Position numbers and translations under genes: made by a program
Assembly (NCBI GenBank): GCA_027487395.1
Contig: JAIYDR010000238.1
Span: 1-41,679 of the forward strand
DNA length: 41,679 nt
DNA from: Rhodobacter sp.
Lineage (GTDB): Bacteria > Pseudomonadota > Alphaproteobacteria > Rhodobacterales > Rhodobacteraceae
Reading direction: 5' to 3'
Notes under the pieces: generated by a model
The model's input: the letters and a program-made list of their open reading frames with translations, nothing else
Database searches by the model: none
What the model was told of the DNA's origin: nothing
In this document: positions 23,554-32,390 of the stretch, one piece after another
Numbering within the stretch: the stretch's first letter is position 1
How the letters are laid out: every line of letters starts with the position of its first letter

Positions 23554-24745
23554 CAGGGCTATCGCATTTGGCCGATGATGGATTTGGCGAAGTCGTCGGA
23601 CCATCCGGATCGTTTTCGCTTTCTTGAGATTGGGAGTTTCGGGCGCGCGGTTCGGAGCAGGTTGAGTGTGAGACGCCGGAGGATGGCGAGGTTTTGGGGT
23701 CCGTTGTCGGCGCGGTTTCTGGCGCGGTCCTCGTCGAATGTGACGTCGAGGACCCAGTGGAGAGAGTTCTCGATGGCCCAGTGGCTGCGGACGGCGCGCG
23801 CGAAGGCTTGTGGAGAGAGCCGAGCGGAAGAGAGGTAATAGCGGGTGGAGGGCGGGCCCTCATCGCGGGTTGCCGTGACAGCGGCCAGCATGGCGAGGCC
23901 GGGCATGGCGGGGGCACCCGGCTCGGCCCTGTCACCAAAGAGCCAATCTGTGGAATGGGTTACGCGGTGTTGGCGGGTCTCGATCCGACCGTGGTCGGCA
24001 TCGGTGGTCACGAAGGTCTCCAGCGCCTCGGGCGGGTCGGCGAAGAAGCGCTCGACCTCGGCCAGCATCGCCGGGCGATTGGCCTTCAGCGCGAAGAGGT
24101 AGTCGCCGCCCCGCTCGAGCACCAGTTGCGCCGTCTCGGTCTGGGCGTGGATCGCATCGCCGGTGACCAGCGCCCCGTCGAGCGCCAGCGTGGCCAAGAG
24201 CGCGCGGGCGGCGGTGATCTCGTTCTCGCCCGGCGCGACGGCCCGCTGCCCCAGGCTGACCCGCGCCTCTGCCCCGAAGGCCGTCACCACATGCAGCGCC
24301 GAGCGGCCAGCCGCGCGGTCGAAGGACCGCCGCAAGGTCTTGCCATCGATGGCGATGACCCCGGCACCATCGGCCCCCAGGTCGGTCAGGAACGCCTCGA
24401 AGGCCCGCCCAAAGGCCTGTGGGTCCAGCAGCCTGAACACCCGGCTGAACGTGTCGTGGCTCGGCAAGCCATTCTCCAGACGAAGAAACTCCCGCAAAAG
24501 CACCTCCCGGTCCTCGGCGAACTCGGCAAAGTCCACACAGCTTTCCGCGCCGCAGACCGAAGCCACCAGAGCAATCGCAAGGATGTCGAGAAGGTCATGC
24601 CGCTGCGCGTTGCCCGACCGCGGGTCAGGCAGGTCTCGGAAAATCGTCAGCAGCGAAGCCATCGGAAAACTCCCCAGCAGGAGAAACCCAAAGAATCCAC
24701 TTCAAACCGATAATCCAGACCAATTTCTCAAATGCGATTCCCCTG
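23554..24745 (-). mobile_element. ISAs1-family insertion sequence, 1192 bp
   Basis: Terminal inverted repeats of 17 bp with two mismatches: CAGGGCTATCGCATTTG at the left end (23554-23570) and, read inward, CAGGGGAATCGCATTTG at the right end (24729-24745). One transposase gene fills the element; its TAG stop lies inside the left repeat. The bases next to the two ends (AAGAGTCC and TGAGGGGG) do not match, so no target-site duplication is visible. Confidence 0.88.
23559..24662 (-). CDS. ISAs1-family (DDE) transposase
   Basis: A 367-residue intact transposase. The N-terminal 'FRDLPDPRSGNAQRHDLLDI' and 'LAIALVASVCGAESCVDFAE' are the ISAs1/H-repeat-associated signature. DDE residues are probably the Asp of VIAIDGKTLRRSFD, the Asp of LVTGDAIHAQTETA, and a late Glu in HWAIENSLHWVLDVTFDED. 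The gene has higher GC than its flanks and looks recently active: there is no frameshift. Confidence 0.92.
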   Translation of the reverse strand: MASLLTIFRDLPDPRSGNAQRHDLLDILAIALVASVCGAESCVDFAEFAEDREVLLREFLRLENGLPSHDTFSRVFRLLDPQAFGRAFEAFLTDLGADGAGVIAIDGKTLRRSFDRAAGRSALHVVTAFGAEARVSLGQRAVAPGENEITAARALLATLALDGALVTGDAIHAQTETAQLVLERGGDYLFALKANRPAMLAEVERFFADPPEALETFVTTDADHGRIETRQHRVTHSTDWLFGDRAEPGAPAMPGLAMLAAVTATRDEGPPSTRYYLSSARLSPQAFARAVRSHWAIENSLHWVLDVTFDEDRARNRADNGPQNLAILRRLTLNLLRTARPKLPISRKRKRSGWSDDFAKSIIGQMR

Positions 24746-25744: not shown

Positions 25745-25798
25745 TCCGGCACCGAAGAAACCCTTTCGTCACAAAACCTTCACTGGACTTCGCGCCGC

Positions 25799-25826
25799 AT
25801 TTCTATATTTCCCGAAATATGGAAAT
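25799..25826. promoter_or_regulatory. Palindromic operator across the arsRC start codon
   Basis: A 28-bp dyad: ATTTCTATATTT, a CCCG centre, then AAATATGGAAAT (11 of 12 positions complementary). It covers a likely -10 (TATATT, 25804-25809) and the ATG at 25819. An ArsR-family dimer bound here would block transcription directly, so autoregulation is likely. No Shine-Dalgarno lies upstream of the ATG. Confidence 0.65.
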
Positions 25827-26661
25827 GACAGCCGCCACCCAAGCCTTCGCCACCCTCGGCCATCCCGGTCGCCTTGCCGTGTTCCGGCTGTTGATGCGCT
25901 TTGCCCCGCAAGGCGTGCGGCCAACGGAAATCGCCGAGGCGCTGGGGCTGAAGCAAAACACGCTGTCGCACCATCTGGCGGACCTGACCGAGGCGGGCTT
26001 GGTGCAGGTCACCCGCCAAGGGCGATCGCTGTTCTATGCCATCGATCTGGCGGTGGCCGAGGCGATGATCGCCTATCTCGCGCTCGATGTTGGGCGGGCA
26101 CGCGCTGACCTTCTGACCACAGTTCACACCATGACAGGACACTCCACCATGCAAGCCTCTGGTTTCAATGTGCTGTTCGTTTGTACCGGCAACTCTGCCC
26201 GGTCGATCTTTGCCGAAGCGCTGTTGCGCGATTTGGGCAAAGGCAAGATCATCGCCCATTCCGCCGGAACCCGCCCCGGAACGGAGCTGAACCCCTTCGC
26301 GCTCGACGTGCTGCGCCGCAATGGCCACGCAGTGGGTGATCTGCGCTCCAAACACATCTCCGATTTTCAGCAACCAGACGCGCCGGTAATGGATTTCGTC
26401 TTCACCGTCTGCGACACGGCGGCGGGTGAGGACTGCCCGCCTTGGCCGGGCCAGCCGATCACTGGCCATTGGGGCCTGCCCGACCCGGTCAAGGCAACCG
26501 GGACCGAGGCCGAAAAGGCGCTCATCTTTTCCCAGACTTACGGGGCACTGCGCCGGCGGATCGCGGCCTTTGTCGAACTGCCCTTTGCCGAACTGAACCG
26601 CCTGTCGTTGCAAGCCCGCGTCGATGCCATCGGCACCGACACCTCTGATCTGAAAGGCTGA
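25819..26661 (+). CDS. ArsR repressor fused to ArsC-type (LMW-PTPase) arsenate reductase
   Basis: A 280-residue two-domain protein. Residues 1-105 are an ArsR/SmtB winged helix ([20 protein letters not shown] recognition helix, then '[12 protein letters not shown]' wing). Residues 116-280 are a low-molecular-weight phosphatase-like arsenate reductase with P-loop [10 protein letters not shown] (Cys122, Arg128) and [11 protein letters not shown]. ArsC reduces As(V) to As(III). The ArsR half contains no cysteine, so the classical As(III) site is absent. An in-frame ATG at 25825 is an alternative start. It lies 5 bp before the GAPDH gene. Confidence 0.88.
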
Positions 26662-26666
26662 CCCCC

Positions 26667-27674
26667 ATGACCCGCATCGCCCTGAACGGCCTTGGCCGCA
26701 TCGGCAAACTCGTCCTGCGCGATCTGATCGACACCGGCGCGGGCGGTGAGATTGTGCTTTTGAACGACCCGATGGGCGATGCTGAACAGCACGCCCTGCT
26801 GATGGAGTTTGACTCTGTCCACGGTCGCTGGCGCACCCCAGTTGGTCACACGGCGGATGCGCTGGTGCTGAACGGCCAGACCATCCGCCTGACGCATGAG
26901 AAAACCATTGAGGCGCTGCCCTTGGCCGAACTGGGCGTCGATCTGGTGATCGACTGTACCGGCGTGTTCAAGACCGGGGCCAAGGTCGCGCCCTATTTCG
27001 CAAGCGGCGTGAAAAAGGTCGTGGTCAGCGCGCTGGTCAAGGATGGCGGGGCGCTGAACATCGTTTACGGCGTCAACCATCATCTGTACGACGGCTCGCA
27101 AGCCCTTGTCACGGCAGCCTCTTGCACCACCAACTGCCTTGCGCCGGTGGTCAAGGTGATCCACGAAAACCTTGGCATTCGCCACGGATCGATCACCACC
27201 ATTCATGACGTCACAAACACCCAAACGATCGTGGACCGCCCGGCCAAGGACATGCGCCGCGCGCGCTCGGCCCTGCTGAATCTCATCCCCACCACCACTG
27301 GCAGCGCCACGGCGATTGCGCTGATCTACCCGGAACTCAAGGGCCGCCTGAACGGCCATGCCGTCCGCGTGCCGCTGCTGAATGGCTCGCTGACCGATTG
27401 CGTCTTTGAGGTGGAGCGTGCGACGACCGTGGAAGAGGTCAACGCCCTGTTCGCCGCCGCCGCCGCAGGACCGCTGGCGGGCATCTTGGGCTATGAAACG
27501 CGCCCCCTCGTGTCCTCGGATTTCACCAACGACCCGCGCTCGTCGATCATCGACGCGCAAAGCACGATGGTCACCGGCGGCACGCAGGTGAAGGTCTACG
27601 CGTGGTACGACAACGAATGGGGCTATTCCTGCCGCCTCGCCGACATCACCCGCATGGTCGCCCAAAGCCTCTGA
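26667..27674 (+). CDS. Glyceraldehyde-3-phosphate dehydrogenase of the ArsJ pathway
   Basis: A 335-residue type I GAPDH with N-terminal [14 protein letters not shown], the catalytic Cys in SCTTNCLAP, the His in [11 protein letters not shown] and C-terminal [11 protein letters not shown]. Next to arsJ such enzymes use arsenate in place of phosphate and give 1-arseno-3-phosphoglycerate, which ArsJ exports. It lacks the company of pgk or other glycolytic genes, which favours the arsenic role. A separate housekeeping GAPDH is expected elsewhere. Confidence 0.88.
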
Positions 27675-27792: not shown

Positions 27793-29040
27793 ATGTCTGT
27801 CGTAAACCCAATCCGCGCCTATGCCGCTGTCACTGCGGCCTATTGGGCCTTCATGCTGTCAGACGGGGCCTTGCGGATGCTGGTTCTGTTGCATTTCAAC
27901 GCCTTGGGATTTTCACCGGTGCAACTGGCGTGGCTGTTTCTGCTCTATGAGGTGGCGGGGATCGTGACCAACCTTGCCGCTGGCTGGCTGGCCGCCCGCT
28001 TTGGTCTGGCGGCAACGCTCTATGCCGGATTGGCCTTGCAAATCGGGGCCTTGGCGGCTTTGGCGCAGCTGGATCCGGCGTGGTCGGTTGCGGCTTCGGT
28101 GGTCTTTGTCATGGCGGTGCAGGGCGTGTCGGGGGTGGCCAAGGATTTGGCCAAGATGTCCTCGAAATCGGCGGTCAAACTGTTGGCCCCCACTGCCGAG
28201 GGCGGACTGTTCCGTTGGGTCGCCTGGCTGACCGGATCAAAGAACGCGGTCAAGGGTTTGGGCTTTTTCCTTGGTGCCGCACTTTTGGGGCTGGCTGGGT
28301 TCACAGCCGCAGTTTGGGGGATGGCGGCTGTGTTGACGGTCATCCTGATCGCGGTGCTCTTGTTCCTGCCGAAAGGTCTGCCCGGACGGATGAAAGCGGA
28401 GGAGGCATGGTCAGGCTGGCGCTCGCGCGATGTCCGCGTAAACCGACTGTCACTGGCACGGCTGTTTCTCTTCGGCGCACGCGATGTGTGGTTCGTCGTC
28501 GGTATCCCGATCTATTTCCAGATGGTGCTCTCGGATGGCACGGCCGAGAGCCGTCGCGCGGCGTTCTTCCTTGTCGGCGGTTTCATGGCGCTCTGGATCA
28601 TCGCCTATGGCGCGGTACAGGCCATGGCCCCGCGCATCCTTGGCGGCAAGGGGCAGTCTGAGGGCGCCATCACCCGCAAGGCAGTATCATGGGCCGGCGC
28701 CTTGGTTCCTATTCCCTTTGCGCTGGCGCTGGCGGCGACTTTGGCAGGGGGACCGACGCCTTGGCTGACGGGGCTTTTGGTGGCGGGATTGCTGCTGTTC
28801 GGCTTTGTCTTTGCGGTCAATTCCTCGGTCCATTCCTATCTGATCCTTGCCTTTGGACAGGCCGAGCGGATCACCCGCGATGTGGGGTTTTACTACATGG
28901 CCAATGCGGCGGGGCGACTCATCGGCACGCTGCTTTCCGGCCTGAGCTATCAATTCGGCGGTCTGTCCCTCTGCCTTGCCACCGCAGGTGCGATGGCACT
29001 GGCCAGTTGGATCGCAGCCCGACGCTTGCTGCCCGGCTAG
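27793..29040 (+). CDS. arsJ: Organoarsenical efflux permease
   Basis: A 415-residue, twelve-helix MFS permease of the ArsJ group. The N-terminal 'AYWAFMLSDGALRMLVLLHF' and the long cytoplasmic 'SGVAKDLAKMSSKSAVKLLA' are characteristic. ArsJ exports 1-arseno-3-phosphoglycerate, which breaks down outside to arsenate, so with the upstream GAPDH it forms an As(V) expulsion route. Its TAG stop overlaps the stop of the convergent GGDEF gene in a shared CTAG. Confidence 0.9.
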   Translation: MSVVNPIRAYAAVTAAYWAFMLSDGALRMLVLLHFNALGFSPVQLAWLFLLYEVAGIVTNLAAGWLAARFGLAATLYAGLALQIGALAALAQLDPAWSVAASVVFVMAVQGVSGVAKDLAKMSSKSAVKLLAPTAEGGLFRWVAWLTGSKNAVKGLGFFLGAALLGLAGFTAAVWGMAAVLTVILIAVLLFLPKGLPGRMKAEEAWSGWRSRDVRVNRLSLARLFLFGARDVWFVVGIPIYFQMVLSDGTAESRRAAFFLVGGFMALWIIAYGAVQAMAPRILGGKGQSEGAITRKAVSWAGALVPIPFALALAATLAGGPTPWLTGLLVAGLLLFGFVFAVNSSVHSYLILAFGQAERITRDVGFYYMANAAGRLIGTLLSGLSYQFGGLSLCLATAGAMALASWIAARRLLPG

Positions 29041-30017
29041 GCCAGAGGCTGCCACGCCTGCATCACAGTCTGCCCGCGCCCTGCCCGCTTGGCGGCGTAT
29101 AGGGCGGCATCGGCTTGCCTGAGCAAGGCATCGGGCTGCGGAAAGGCACGCGGCGGTGACAGGATCAAGCCGCCGCTGGCCCCGATGCGGCAGGGCTGAC
29201 CCTCAAACGGGATCGGACGTGCCAAGCGCCGCGTCACCCGCTCGGCCACCTGCATCGCCCGCGCGGCATCGGCCATGCCTGAGAGCAGCACCACGAACTC
29301 ATCCCCGCCCAAGCGCGCCAGCGTATCCCCGGCCCGCGTCTCCTGCGTCAACACGCGGGCCACTTCTGCCAGCACATGATCGCCCGCGGCATGGCCAAGG
29401 CTGTCATTGACCTGCTTGAACCGGTCCAAATCCAGTTGCAGCAGCGCGAAACCTTCGACCCCGGCGCAGTGATCGGCCAAAGCGCCCTCTAGCGCGCGGC
29501 GGTTGCGCAGGCCGGTCAAGGGATCGGTCAGCGCCTGTTCTTGCGCCACAGCCTGCGCGCCCTGCAAGCGGCGGTTCAGGCTGCGCAATTCGCTGGACAC
29601 GGCAGCATTCGCCTCAACCAGCCACAACAGGTCAACCGTGCGGTCGGTCGGGCCGAAATCGGCTTCGGTCAGCTCCAGATCCCGCACGGCGGAGGGCACA
29701 TCGACAAAGGCCAAGGCGAGCAGAAGCCCACCCCCCGGCACGGGCAGCGCAAGGCCCTGCATCGGATGGCGCGGATCACTGCGCAGCACCAGTTCCACCG
29801 GCCCCCCTTGCCACAGCGCGTCAAGATCAGTGGGACGGTGCAGGGTGAACAGGTCGGTGACCCCATGCTCCACCGCGCCCGCACCGATCAGACGCCGGAG
29901 TGTTGGGCCAAACCCGGTCACCCGCCCCTCTGCCGCCAGTGCCAGATGCAGGGGCATCAACCGCGCCAAAAGGCTTGCCGGAAACATCGTATCGGTCTGG
30001 GCGAAAGCGACGGTCAT
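29037..30017 (-). CDS. GGDEF diguanylate cyclase with HNOBA-like N-terminus
   Basis: A 326-residue protein. Residues 1-130 resemble the H-NOX-associated (HNOBA) signalling region ('FPASLLARLMPLHLALAAEG', 'GPTLRRLIGAG'); a coiled-coil-like linker follows (about 128-162); then GGDEF, starting 'DPLTGLRNRRALEGAL', with active site LARLGGDEFVVLL. An RxxD inhibitory site (RAGD) lies five residues before GGDEF, so product feedback is likely. It makes c-di-GMP. The start overlaps the H-NOX-like gene stop by 4 bp, so the pair should act together. Confidence 0.88.
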   Translation of the reverse strand: MTVAFAQTDTMFPASLLARLMPLHLALAAEGRVTGFGPTLRRLIGAGAVEHGVTDLFTLHRPTDLDALWQGGPVELVLRSDPRHPMQGLALPVPGGGLLLALAFVDVPSAVRDLELTEADFGPTDRTVDLLWLVEANAAVSSELRSLNRRLQGAQAVAQEQALTDPLTGLRNRRALEGALADHCAGVEGFALLQLDLDRFKQVNDSLGHAAGDHVLAEVARVLTQETRAGDTLARLGGDEFVVLLSGMADAARAMQVAERVTRRLARPIPFEGQPCRIGASGGLILSPPRAFPQPDALLRQADAALYAAKRAGRGQTVMQAWQPLA

Positions 30018-30604
30018 GCGGGGGCAGCCAGCCGAAAATCGCGGGCTAGGGCGTGGTGTCCGTCCAGCAGATCGATGCGGATGCAGGGCGTGCCCGCCTC
30101 GGCCTCGATCAGCACCAGGGCACCATGCTCATCCGCCATCGCCCGGATCAAGCCCACCAGCAGCGCGGCAAAGGGGGCCGACAGTATGTCCCCCTGCCCG
30201 CCCGCAACGGTCACACGAAAGCATTCCGGGGTCAGTGCCGAAACCTGCAGCGCGGGCAGGTGCAAATCAGGCACGGCCAATCGCACCCGCCCCGGCAAAT
30301 GGGTCAGCGAATGCACAAAATCAGGAAACCCAGCCCCGCCAAAACGCAACAGGCGCCGCACACCATCCCGCCTTGGGTGGGAGACAAGATAGGTCCCCAT
30401 ATCCTCCAGCAAGCTGTCGCGGCTGCGGTTCAGCCGTGTCGCCGCACGGTCCAGCAGCGCCATCGCCAAAGCGGGGTCATAGGTCAGCATTGCCTCAAAC
30501 CCCTGCGCGGGCAGGCGTAGGTCAGAGGCCACCGCCTGCCAGAACGCAGCACCCCAGATGTCGCGCAGAAAGGATTGAATCGCCCGAAGGATCAGCCCAT
30601 GCAT
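30014..30604 (-). CDS. H-NOX (heme NO-binding)-like protein lacking canonical heme residues
   Basis: A 196-residue protein with the H-NOX N-terminus 'MHGLILRAIQSFLRDIWGAA', the mid-region 'LEDMGTYLVSHP' and 'LRFGGAGFPDFVHSLTHLPG'. In canonical H-NOX the axial His follows this segment (as in DE(V/L)H); the aligned residue here is Pro104, with a His two residues earlier (His102). The YxSxR heme-propionate motif is not present where expected ('FRVTVAGGQG'). It may bind heme differently or not at all. It is coupled with the downstream GGDEF protein. The start at 30604 is by family alignment. Confidence 0.78.
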   Translation of the reverse strand: MHGLILRAIQSFLRDIWGAAFWQAVASDLRLPAQGFEAMLTYDPALAMALLDRAATRLNRSRDSLLEDMGTYLVSHPRRDGVRRLLRFGGAGFPDFVHSLTHLPGRVRLAVPDLHLPALQVSALTPECFRVTVAGGQGDILSAPFAALLVGLIRAMADEHGALVLIEAEAGTPCIRIDLLDGHHALARDFRLAAPA

Positions 30605-30659
30605 CACCCACCCCCTGTCACCTTGGGGGCAGATTAGGATGCGATCCTTAAGCCATTCC

Positions 30660-32390
30660 TTACGGCAGCAGCACCAAGCCGGTTTCCGCCCCCCCCAGAT
30701 CAATCCGATTGATCGGCGCAGGCGTCAGCGCGGGTGGCGCATTCTGCAGCGCCAGCAACAGTGCCTCGGCGGTGGCGAATTGCGGCAAGGCCCCGGTCAA
30801 GGACCCGACGGTGACAAACCGCGCCAAGCCGTCATCGCCCAAGGCCAGCCCGGAAAGCTCGACCCACCCCCCCGCGTCGCGGGTCACGACCAAACCCTCT
30901 TCGCCCGGCCAGCGCGGCAGGAAATCCCCCACCACAAAAACGCAGCCCGGACGCCCATCGGCAAAGGTGCTGCGACAGGCGGCAAGCCATATCTGCATCG
31001 TCTCTGGCAGGACGGCGGTCATCAGCAAGTCGCGCGTCGCTGTGGCCCCCGGCGGCTGCAAGGGCATCGCGGCGGTCAGATGGGCCAGCACCGCCGCTTG
31101 GGGCACAGGTTCGGGGACGATCGCCTCTTTTAACCGGCTGGCCAACGCCTCTTGCCCCGGTTGCTTGGCCATCTCTTCCAGGCTTGCGCGGGCGGCGGCC
31201 CCCGCCTTACCCCAGCTTTCCAGCGCCACGACATCCAGCGCCGCAATCGGGGTTTTTCCGGTCTCAAACCGGGCCATTTGATCCTTGGCCGAGATATCCT
31301 CGGCCGGGATCACTGCCAGCCACAGCGCCGCCAGCACGACCGTCACCAAGGCCATCCCGCTATTCGCGCTGCGGATGCGCGCCATCCAACGCGACCCCAA
31401 CGCAACCGATCCGGCATAGGCCAGACCGTACCCCAGCCCGAGCCCGGCCAAAAGCGCAATGAACAGCCTGTCCGGCGTCCAGCCATAGTCCTCCACCCGC
31501 AGCCAGACCGCCCAAGCCGCCAGCGCGGCAGGCAAGGGCAGCATCAAGGCCATCGCCTGCGTTGCGGTGCGCATCAGCTTGCCTTTGACGGCCTGCTCAT
31601 CCTCACGGTCAACAGCCGTGGTCACCAGCGTCGCGGCGGCGGCGGTCATGGCAAGCAGCGTTGCCGCCGCCGATAGCCCGCCAAAGCCCGCCATCCCGTT
31701 CAAGGGCAGCGCCATCAGAAACACCACCAGCACCACAAGCACCGGGATCAAAGGCAGCCTCAGCAACCCCAAGACCAGCGTGGGCGACAGTATCCCGGCC
31801 ATTTCGGCCACCACCGCCAAGGACAGGCCCAAAGCCGTCCCAATGATCAGCCACTTTATCGGATCAATCATCAGCAGGGTATCGATGACATCCAGCCCGA
31901 CCAAGCTAAACAAAAGATGCGACAGGCCGATCAGCGCCCAGACCAGCGCGGTAAAGATCAGCGCCGCCGTGATGCGCACCACCAAGGACCAGCTTTCGCG
32001 AAACAGGCTTGCGTAATCGCGCCACCCGGCCTTGCCTCCCGCCGCGATCAGAAAGGGCAAAGGCAGGAAGGCAACGGCAAAGCCAGACAAGATCGGCAAG
32101 CCGGTCGACAGGTAAGCCTCAGCCGTCGCATAGCGCTGCGCCCCCACCAGCATCAGCCCGGCCACAGCCACCCCCACGAGCAGCGCAGACAACGTTGCCC
32201 GGCCATAGCGCACCGGCCCCACCATCACCATCAACGCACCGGCAAAGACCGCCGCAAACACGGCACTTCCCAAGGCAATTTGGTCCGAGACCTGATCCCG
32301 TCTCAGCACCTCGGCCAACGCATACAGCCCTGCGCCGCAGAGCGCACCCGTGAGTGTCAGCGCCCCTCGCCGCCGCAGACGCCTGTCCAT
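30660..32390 (-). CDS. DUF4153 family membrane protein
   Basis: A 576-residue protein with about ten to twelve hydrophobic segments in residues 1-360 and a soluble C-terminal third (about 375-576). This matches the DUF4153 group, of unknown function. The C-terminal part includes 'WLAACRSTFADGRPGCVFVV' and 'VVTRDAGGWVELSGLALGDD'. It lies 55 bp upstream of the H-NOX-like gene on the same strand, so the three genes may form a unit. Confidence 0.75.
   Translation of the reverse strand: MDRRLRRRGALTLTGALCGAGLYALAEVLRRDQVSDQIALGSAVFAAVFAGALMVMVGPVRYGRATLSALLVGVAVAGLMLVGAQRYATAEAYLSTGLPILSGFAVAFLPLPFLIAAGGKAGWRDYASLFRESWSLVVRITAALIFTALVWALIGLSHLLFSLVGLDVIDTLLMIDPIKWLIIGTALGLSLAVVAEMAGILSPTLVLGLLRLPLIPVLVVLVVFLMALPLNGMAGFGGLSAAATLLAMTAAAATLVTTAVDREDEQAVKGKLMRTATQAMALMLPLPAALAAWAVWLRVEDYGWTPDRLFIALLAGLGLGYGLAYAGSVALGSRWMARIRSANSGMALVTVVLAALWLAVIPAEDISAKDQMARFETGKTPIAALDVVALESWGKAGAAARASLEEMAKQPGQEALASRLKEAIVPEPVPQAAVLAHLTAAMPLQPPGATATRDLLMTAVLPETMQIWLAACRSTFADGRPGCVFVVGDFLPRWPGEEGLVVTRDAGGWVELSGLALGDDGLARFVTVGSLTGALPQFATAEALLLALQNAPPALTPAPINRIDLGGAETGLVLLP

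Follow-up and report, generated by a model that had tools for sequence, protein, structure and literature searches.

An ArsR-ArsC fusion without an arsenite site in a Rhodobacter arsenate-export operon: a possible enzyme-gated arsenate sensor

Most characterised arsenic repressors sense arsenite, the reduction product. In the stretch of 41,679 nucleotides analysed here (Rhodobacter sp., contig JAIYDR010000238.1; hereafter the window), an ArsR repressor and an ArsC-type arsenate reductase are joined in one chain whose repressor half contains no cysteine. The question is what such a protein could sense. The gene and its relevant parts are as follows.

25819 to 26661, forward strand: arsRC, an ArsR-ArsC fusion of 280 residues (ArsC half of LMW-PTP fold, thioredoxin-type arsenate reductase)
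25819 to 26100, forward strand: residues 1-94, the winged-helix repressor half (ArsR), with AfArsR (6j05) as its nearest solved fold
26089 to 26094, forward strand: Val-Gly at codons 91-92, which align with Cys95-Cys96 in AfArsR and with Cys91-Cys92 in related fusions; these As(III) ligands are lost
26113 to 26115, forward strand: Leu at codon 99, where related fusions have their third As(III) ligand; this one too is lost
26182 to 26184, forward strand: codon 122, nucleophilic Cys in the P-loop CTGNSARS, from alignment with solved ArsC enzymes
26410 to 26412, forward strand: codon 198, first resolving Cys of the ArsC redox relay, from alignment to ArsC
26434 to 26436, forward strand: codon 206, second resolving Cys of the same relay, from alignment to ArsC

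The open reading frame starts with ATG and runs through both domains in a single uninterrupted frame. Its only cysteines are at 122, 198 and 206, with none in residues 1-121; since homologues share the start Met, no Cys-bearing N-terminus has been overlooked. In profile searches, residues ~7-80 score 63.4 bits against NF033788, an ArsR metalloregulator subfamily (cut-off 55), and the same half exceeds the cut-offs of PF01022 and PF12840, which places it in the ArsR/SmtB metalloregulators. Residues 118-248 are above the cut-off of LMWPc (PF01451). The score against arsC_pI258 (TIGR02691) is 63.5 bits, below the equivalog cut-off of 174.3, and so we describe this half as a divergent ArsC-like domain rather than as a TIGR02691 member. 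It nevertheless has the sequence features of a thioredoxin-type ArsC: a CX5R P-loop, a DP motif, two resolving cysteines and the LMW-PTP fold. Alignment to the B. subtilis and Deinococcus enzymes identifies Cys122 as the nucleophile of the P-loop and Cys198 and Cys206 as the resolving pair. Every catalytic residue is kept, and reductase activity is predicted. The initial annotation had described a Cys-free sensor half, a first cysteine at 122 and a catalytic role for that residue; the frame, the cysteine positions and the alignment with solved ArsC enzymes bear this out.

By itself, the missing cysteine is unremarkable. Given a Cys content of 0.81% in nine neighbouring proteins, 121 residues would lack cysteine by chance with P = 0.37, which rules out significance for the absence alone; comparison with relatives is what gives it meaning. 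A scan for relatives found 573 encoding stretches, of which 80 loci were kept, nearly all from Rhodobacteraceae and nearly all with gapdh and arsJ next downstream. To these were added 30 loci around ArsJ-associated GAPDH genes. The alignment comprises 109 fusions, the window protein included, and one plasmid copy was added later.

The nearest solved fold to the window ArsR half, AfArsR (39% identity over 87 columns), has a Type 2 As(III) site made of Cys95-Cys96-Cys102 (PDB 6j05; PMC11868830). At the same place, 45 of the 109 fusions have the AfArsR-type site Cys91-Cys92-x6-Cys99, and 60, the window protein among them, have none of the three cysteines (61 with the added plasmid copy). Columns 91, 92 and 99 of those 61 read V or L, G, and mostly L. 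Unlike AfArsR, the window protein is fused to ArsC and has Val91, Gly92 and Leu99 in place of the ligands; tested at the positions known from R773, AfArsR and CgArsR (Types 1 to 3), it contains no three-Cys As(III) site. The earlier statement that the ArsR half lacks an arsenite site can thus be sharpened: an ancestral AfArsR-type triad has been lost at its exact positions. Other conserved cysteines in the sensor half were considered and rejected, as 46 of the 61 Cys-less rows have none and in the rest they are scattered. The remaining fusions keep one cysteine (three cases) or two (one case). Those with Cys91 alone left of the triad are L215 6001-6813 (Cereibacter sphaeroides 2.4.1 pDE), L078 and L080; judged by sequence, they are an intermediate state between the Cys-bearing and Cys-less forms. 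A Cys-less arsRC-gapdh-arsJ is also found in the laboratory strain R. capsulatus SB1003, on pRCB133, and the related strain DSM 1710 carries two loci for Cys-less arsRC.

To read the direction of change, we left the trait columns out of the alignment and built a tree from the rest. Unfused arsR and arsC pairs from ACR3 operons (Azospirillum, Asticcacaulis, Pseudosulfitobacter) are all CCC, which puts the root on the Cys-bearing side. The deepest fusions are also CCC and the Cys-less rows are nested among them; thus, the Cys-less state is derived. A tree with all Cys-less rows as one clade scored higher and is not rejected (p-AU 0.83), and the same holds when the partly eroded rows are added (p-AU 0.57). 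Several independent losses, hinted at by a quick tree, are unsupported, as the single-clade trees scored higher. Loss of the As(III) site is therefore derived and clade-wide, and a single loss is compatible with the trees.

If the site is gone, the ArsR half might simply be an autorepressor without an arsenic ligand, one that sets a basal level in an operon that is not arsenic-inducible. It has no recognisable ligand site, and the erosion intermediates (C91 only, or C91-C92) are what relaxed selection on sensing would leave. However, in the Cys-less clade dN/dS is 0.09 for loop 89-100, compared with 0.18 for the ArsR half and 0.17 for the ArsC half, so the ligand loop is not decaying. The former ligand loop is fixed there as LD-V/L-G-R-A/G-RPDL, with D90 and R95 invariant; it is more, not less, conserved, and H51 is invariant as well. 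Conservation and dN/dS together rule out relaxed selection on the sensor half. The DNA-binding half is unchanged in the Cys-less fusions, the operator described below is retained, and the costly expression of GAPDH and ArsJ is normally inducible, as in V. cholerae (PMC9601151). We consider this explanation quite unlikely.

The genes that follow arsRC, and the site in front of it, are these.

26667 to 27674, forward strand: gapdh, ArsJ-associated glyceraldehyde-3-phosphate dehydrogenase (NF033735, 532 bits, cut-off 450)
27793 to 29040, forward strand: arsJ, organoarsenical efflux MFS transporter (NF033734, 516 bits, cut-off 400)
25798 to 25827, no strand: operator, a 30-bp near-perfect palindrome, CATTTCTATATTTC-CC-GAAATATGGAAATG, spanning the arsRC start codon

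The gapdh gene begins 5 bp past the arsRC stop and arsJ is next; with both profiles over their cut-offs in adjacent genes, the GAPDH-ArsJ arsenate export module is present, and from its gene content arsRC-gapdh-arsJ is a predicted arsenate-export operon. This context of the fusion was absent from the initial annotation. Where this pair has been described, 1-arseno-3-phosphoglycerate is the product of GAPDH, and either this compound or free arsenate is exported by ArsJ (PMC6205960, PMC9601151). Since the operon serves arsenate export, arsenate would be its natural inducer.

The palindrome has a single copy in the window genome, at arsRC, even with up to 3 mismatches allowed. An ArsR that regulates its own gene would be expected to have such an operator, and we infer binding from the sequence. 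Its consensus is identical ahead of Cys-less and Cys-bearing fusions. A search for a sigma-70 consensus promoter ahead of the operator found none. The operator includes the ATG and leaves little space for a ribosome-binding site; together with a TATATT at 25804-25809, this layout suggests that arsRC may be transcribed without a leader.

Control of the promoter by a separate, Cys-containing ArsR, with the fused ArsR half as a relic, is the explanation that the initial annotation had named as fatal to its proposal. Such a protein was sought in the window genome (430 contigs, 91% complete) and no As(III)-type ArsR was found: the other ArsR-family proteins have neither CxC nor CC-x6-C motifs, and the operator occurs only at arsRC. 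Two of them have a Cys spacing that we take to be that of BigR/SqrR-type sulfur sensors. Some relatives do have linked CxC or CC ArsRs, usually beside acr3 or another permease. Against a separate regulator, the operator accompanies the fusion throughout the family and the ArsR half is under purifying selection, and we regard this explanation as barely credible.

The same genome, at 91% completeness, yielded no ACR3, no ArsB and no glutaredoxin-type ArsC; its one other LMW-PTP protein resembles an ordinary tyrosine phosphatase. Missing arsenite pumps were considered as the reason for losing the As(III) site, and no clear difference was found. ACR3 is present in 22 of 32 Cys-less and 9 of 15 Cys-bearing named genomes and absent from 10 of 32 and 6 of 15, respectively, where ArsB over the family cut-off is also absent. 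With rates so similar, the arsenite site and arsenite export have not been lost in step. In the Cys-less genomes without ACR3 and ArsB, the ArsC half feeds no known pump of those two families, yet it is conserved. Within the operon itself, acr3 accompanies 13 of 44 Cys-bearing and 0 of 56 Cys-less fusions (Fisher 7e-6); as a correlation with Cys state this was dropped, because it rests on only 2 to 5 independent tree pairs.

How, then, might the protein work? The conserved operator and the fold suggest that the ArsR half represses arsRC-gapdh-arsJ by binding to the palindrome that spans the arsRC start codon. At the dimerisation helix, its ancestors would have had an As(III) site of the AfArsR type, Cys-Cys-x6-Cys. 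The simplest reading of the Cys-bearing relatives is that the reductase supplies the arsenite which the sensor on the same chain detects: the attached ArsC could generate As(III) close by and pass it on to this site, so that a sensor of arsenite would come to report arsenate. The initial annotation had proposed, for the window protein, an inducer produced on the same chain. That idea suits the Cys-bearing relatives better, and the window protein fits it less well.

The Cys-less clade has lost the As(III) site but retained all the catalytic residues of ArsC: C122, N125, R128, S129, C198, C206 and D222 are invariant in Cys-less and Cys-bearing groups alike. With the arsenite site erased, the reductase kept and the operon devoted to arsenate export, arsenate on the ArsC half is the likeliest signal. 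It would be sensed there either bound to Cys122 or covalently held at it; alternatively, the signal could be the Cys198-Cys206 disulfide left by turnover until thioredoxin resets it. Either signal would change the packing of the two halves and so lower operator affinity. We put at only just under even the chance that arsenate, or the redox state left on the ArsC half, relieves repression of this self-regulated operon, a view drawn from the sequences. The complete proposal falls somewhat short of even and is offered tentatively: a one-component, enzyme-gated arsenate sensor, its DNA binding set by substrate occupancy, a Cys122 adduct or the Cys198-Cys206 redox state, which evolved from an arsenite-sensing repressor by erasure of the metalloid site and controls an operon that exports arsenate without need of reduction. 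If this is true, the ArsC half is mainly a sensor.

The coupling of the two domains is a conjectural step. An AlphaFold2 monomer model (pLDDT 89, pTM 0.61, linker at low confidence) matches the ArsC structures 8p6m, 1jl3 and 1jf8 as well as AfArsR 6j05, and predicts no interdomain interface or confident domain packing. The spacing from D90 to C122 ranges from 23 to 43 residues among the fusions. A rigid lever acting through so variable a linker is unlikely, and an interdomain contact would have to carry the signal; given this linker and the model, coupling is something that we can only infer.

The three ArsC cysteines could instead bind As(III), which would then still be the inducer. Cys122, 198 and 206 are all invariant, and a structure of pI258 ArsC with arsenite exists (1lju). 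Nevertheless, their role in the reductase relay explains the conservation of the three, and arsenite would be an odd signal in a genome in which no dedicated arsenite pump was found; we judge this reading improbable.

A better contender, though still an unlikely one, is direct binding of another ligand by the ArsR half (arsenate, 1-arseno-3-phosphoglycerate or a phospho-sugar) through the conserved polar residues H51, R66, R69, D90, R93 and R95, with the ArsC half only a reductase. The invariance of H51, D90 and R95 in the Cys-less clade and the tight conservation of loop 89-100 agree with it, and arsenate-responsive ArsR/SmtB proteins without a fused reductase are known, namely TtSmtB (PMC5658604) and the V. 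cholerae var ArsR (PMC9601151). However, R93 and R95 are also present in Cys-bearing fusions and so are not new ligands, the residues match no known pocket, and TtSmtB retains its cysteines. Direct binding also leaves the continued fusion to a reductase unexplained.

Several elements of this picture are already known: ArsR-ArsC fusions, gapdh-arsJ and the Type 2 ArsR. Fusions are known from Leptospirillum ferriphilum, Microbacterium, Sinorhizobium and other Actinobacteria; like the window protein, they are single chains that combine ArsR with an ArsC domain and are encoded in an ars operon. The available portions of the sources raise arsenite sensing or detoxification as a possible use and mention neither a Cys-less sensor half nor a link to gapdh-arsJ (PMC6205960, PMC6514093). 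Arsenate efflux by gapdh-arsJ in P. aeruginosa DK2 involves the same GAPDH-ArsJ pair, and the review that covers it describes no ArsRC fusion there (PMC6205960). ArsRM of Brevundimonas sp. M20 is likewise a repressor fused to an arsenic enzyme and binds its own promoter, but the enzyme is a methyltransferase, not a reductase, and the chemistry is that of As(III) (PMC10190100). TtSmtB of Thermus thermophilus is a reported arsenate sensor of the ArsR/SmtB family; unlike the window protein, it is unfused and has three cysteines (PMC5658604).

A close parallel is the V. cholerae var operon, arsR-varG-varH-arsJ, which shares ArsR, GAPDH and ArsJ with the window operon. Its promoter is induced by As(V), and because the As(III) motif of its ArsR is altered, the authors suggest that this ArsR senses As(V) (PMC9601151). 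Unlike the window protein, it is unfused, with the separate dual-specificity phosphatase VarH in place of the ArsC domain (PMC9601151). The switching-on of arsenate-export operons by arsenate was left open for V. cholerae (PMC9601151). The literature searched, which covered earlier functional work on ArsR-ArsC fusions in part, describes no Cys-less ArsRC clade and no enzyme-gated arsenate sensing. The clade is a natural experiment, in which operon, operator and reductase are shared while one branch has kept the arsenite site and another has lost it. It opens to experiment, in a laboratory strain, the idea that an enzyme-repressor chain senses arsenate directly. An arsenate-specific repressor, if that is what it is, would be useful for biosensors.

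A gammaproteobacterial family (L158 8213-8977, reverse strand; L262-L281) has the fusion in reverse order, ArsC(N)-ArsR(C), in many cases directly upstream of gapdh-arsJ. Most of these have the R773-type CVC motif; L262 and L263 have CVY. An arsenate-handling enzyme thus seems to have been joined to ArsR upstream of gapdh-arsJ at least twice, and we count these reverse-order fusions, like the V. cholerae var operon, as a precedent for the arsenate sensing proposed here. Stand-alone ArsRs also occur beside gapdh-arsJ (L156 9015-9356; L157 8952-9293; L161 4429-4770, reverse strand). In L156 and L161 the R773-type CVC position reads SVG, and L157 is alike by its Cys positions. In L156 and L157, gapdh and arsJ are ~620-750 bp apart, which leaves room for a possible varH-like gene. 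VarH has been called rather exclusive to Vibrionaceae (PMC9601151). On Pseudoalteromonas shioyasakiensis plasmid p1 (L282 5043-9535), an arsR/ArsC-like gene, acr3, a dual-specificity phosphatase, gapdh and arsJ form an operon, and the phosphatase is possibly a VarH relative outside that family.

Two further features flank the operon in the window. At 23559-24662, reverse strand, an intact-length ISAs1-family transposase lies upstream, between Ldh_2 and amidohydrolase genes. At 29037-30703, also reverse strand, a haem-NO-binding (HNOB) gene overlaps a GGDEF diguanylate cyclase gene; the pair is convergent with arsJ, and the stop codons overlap.
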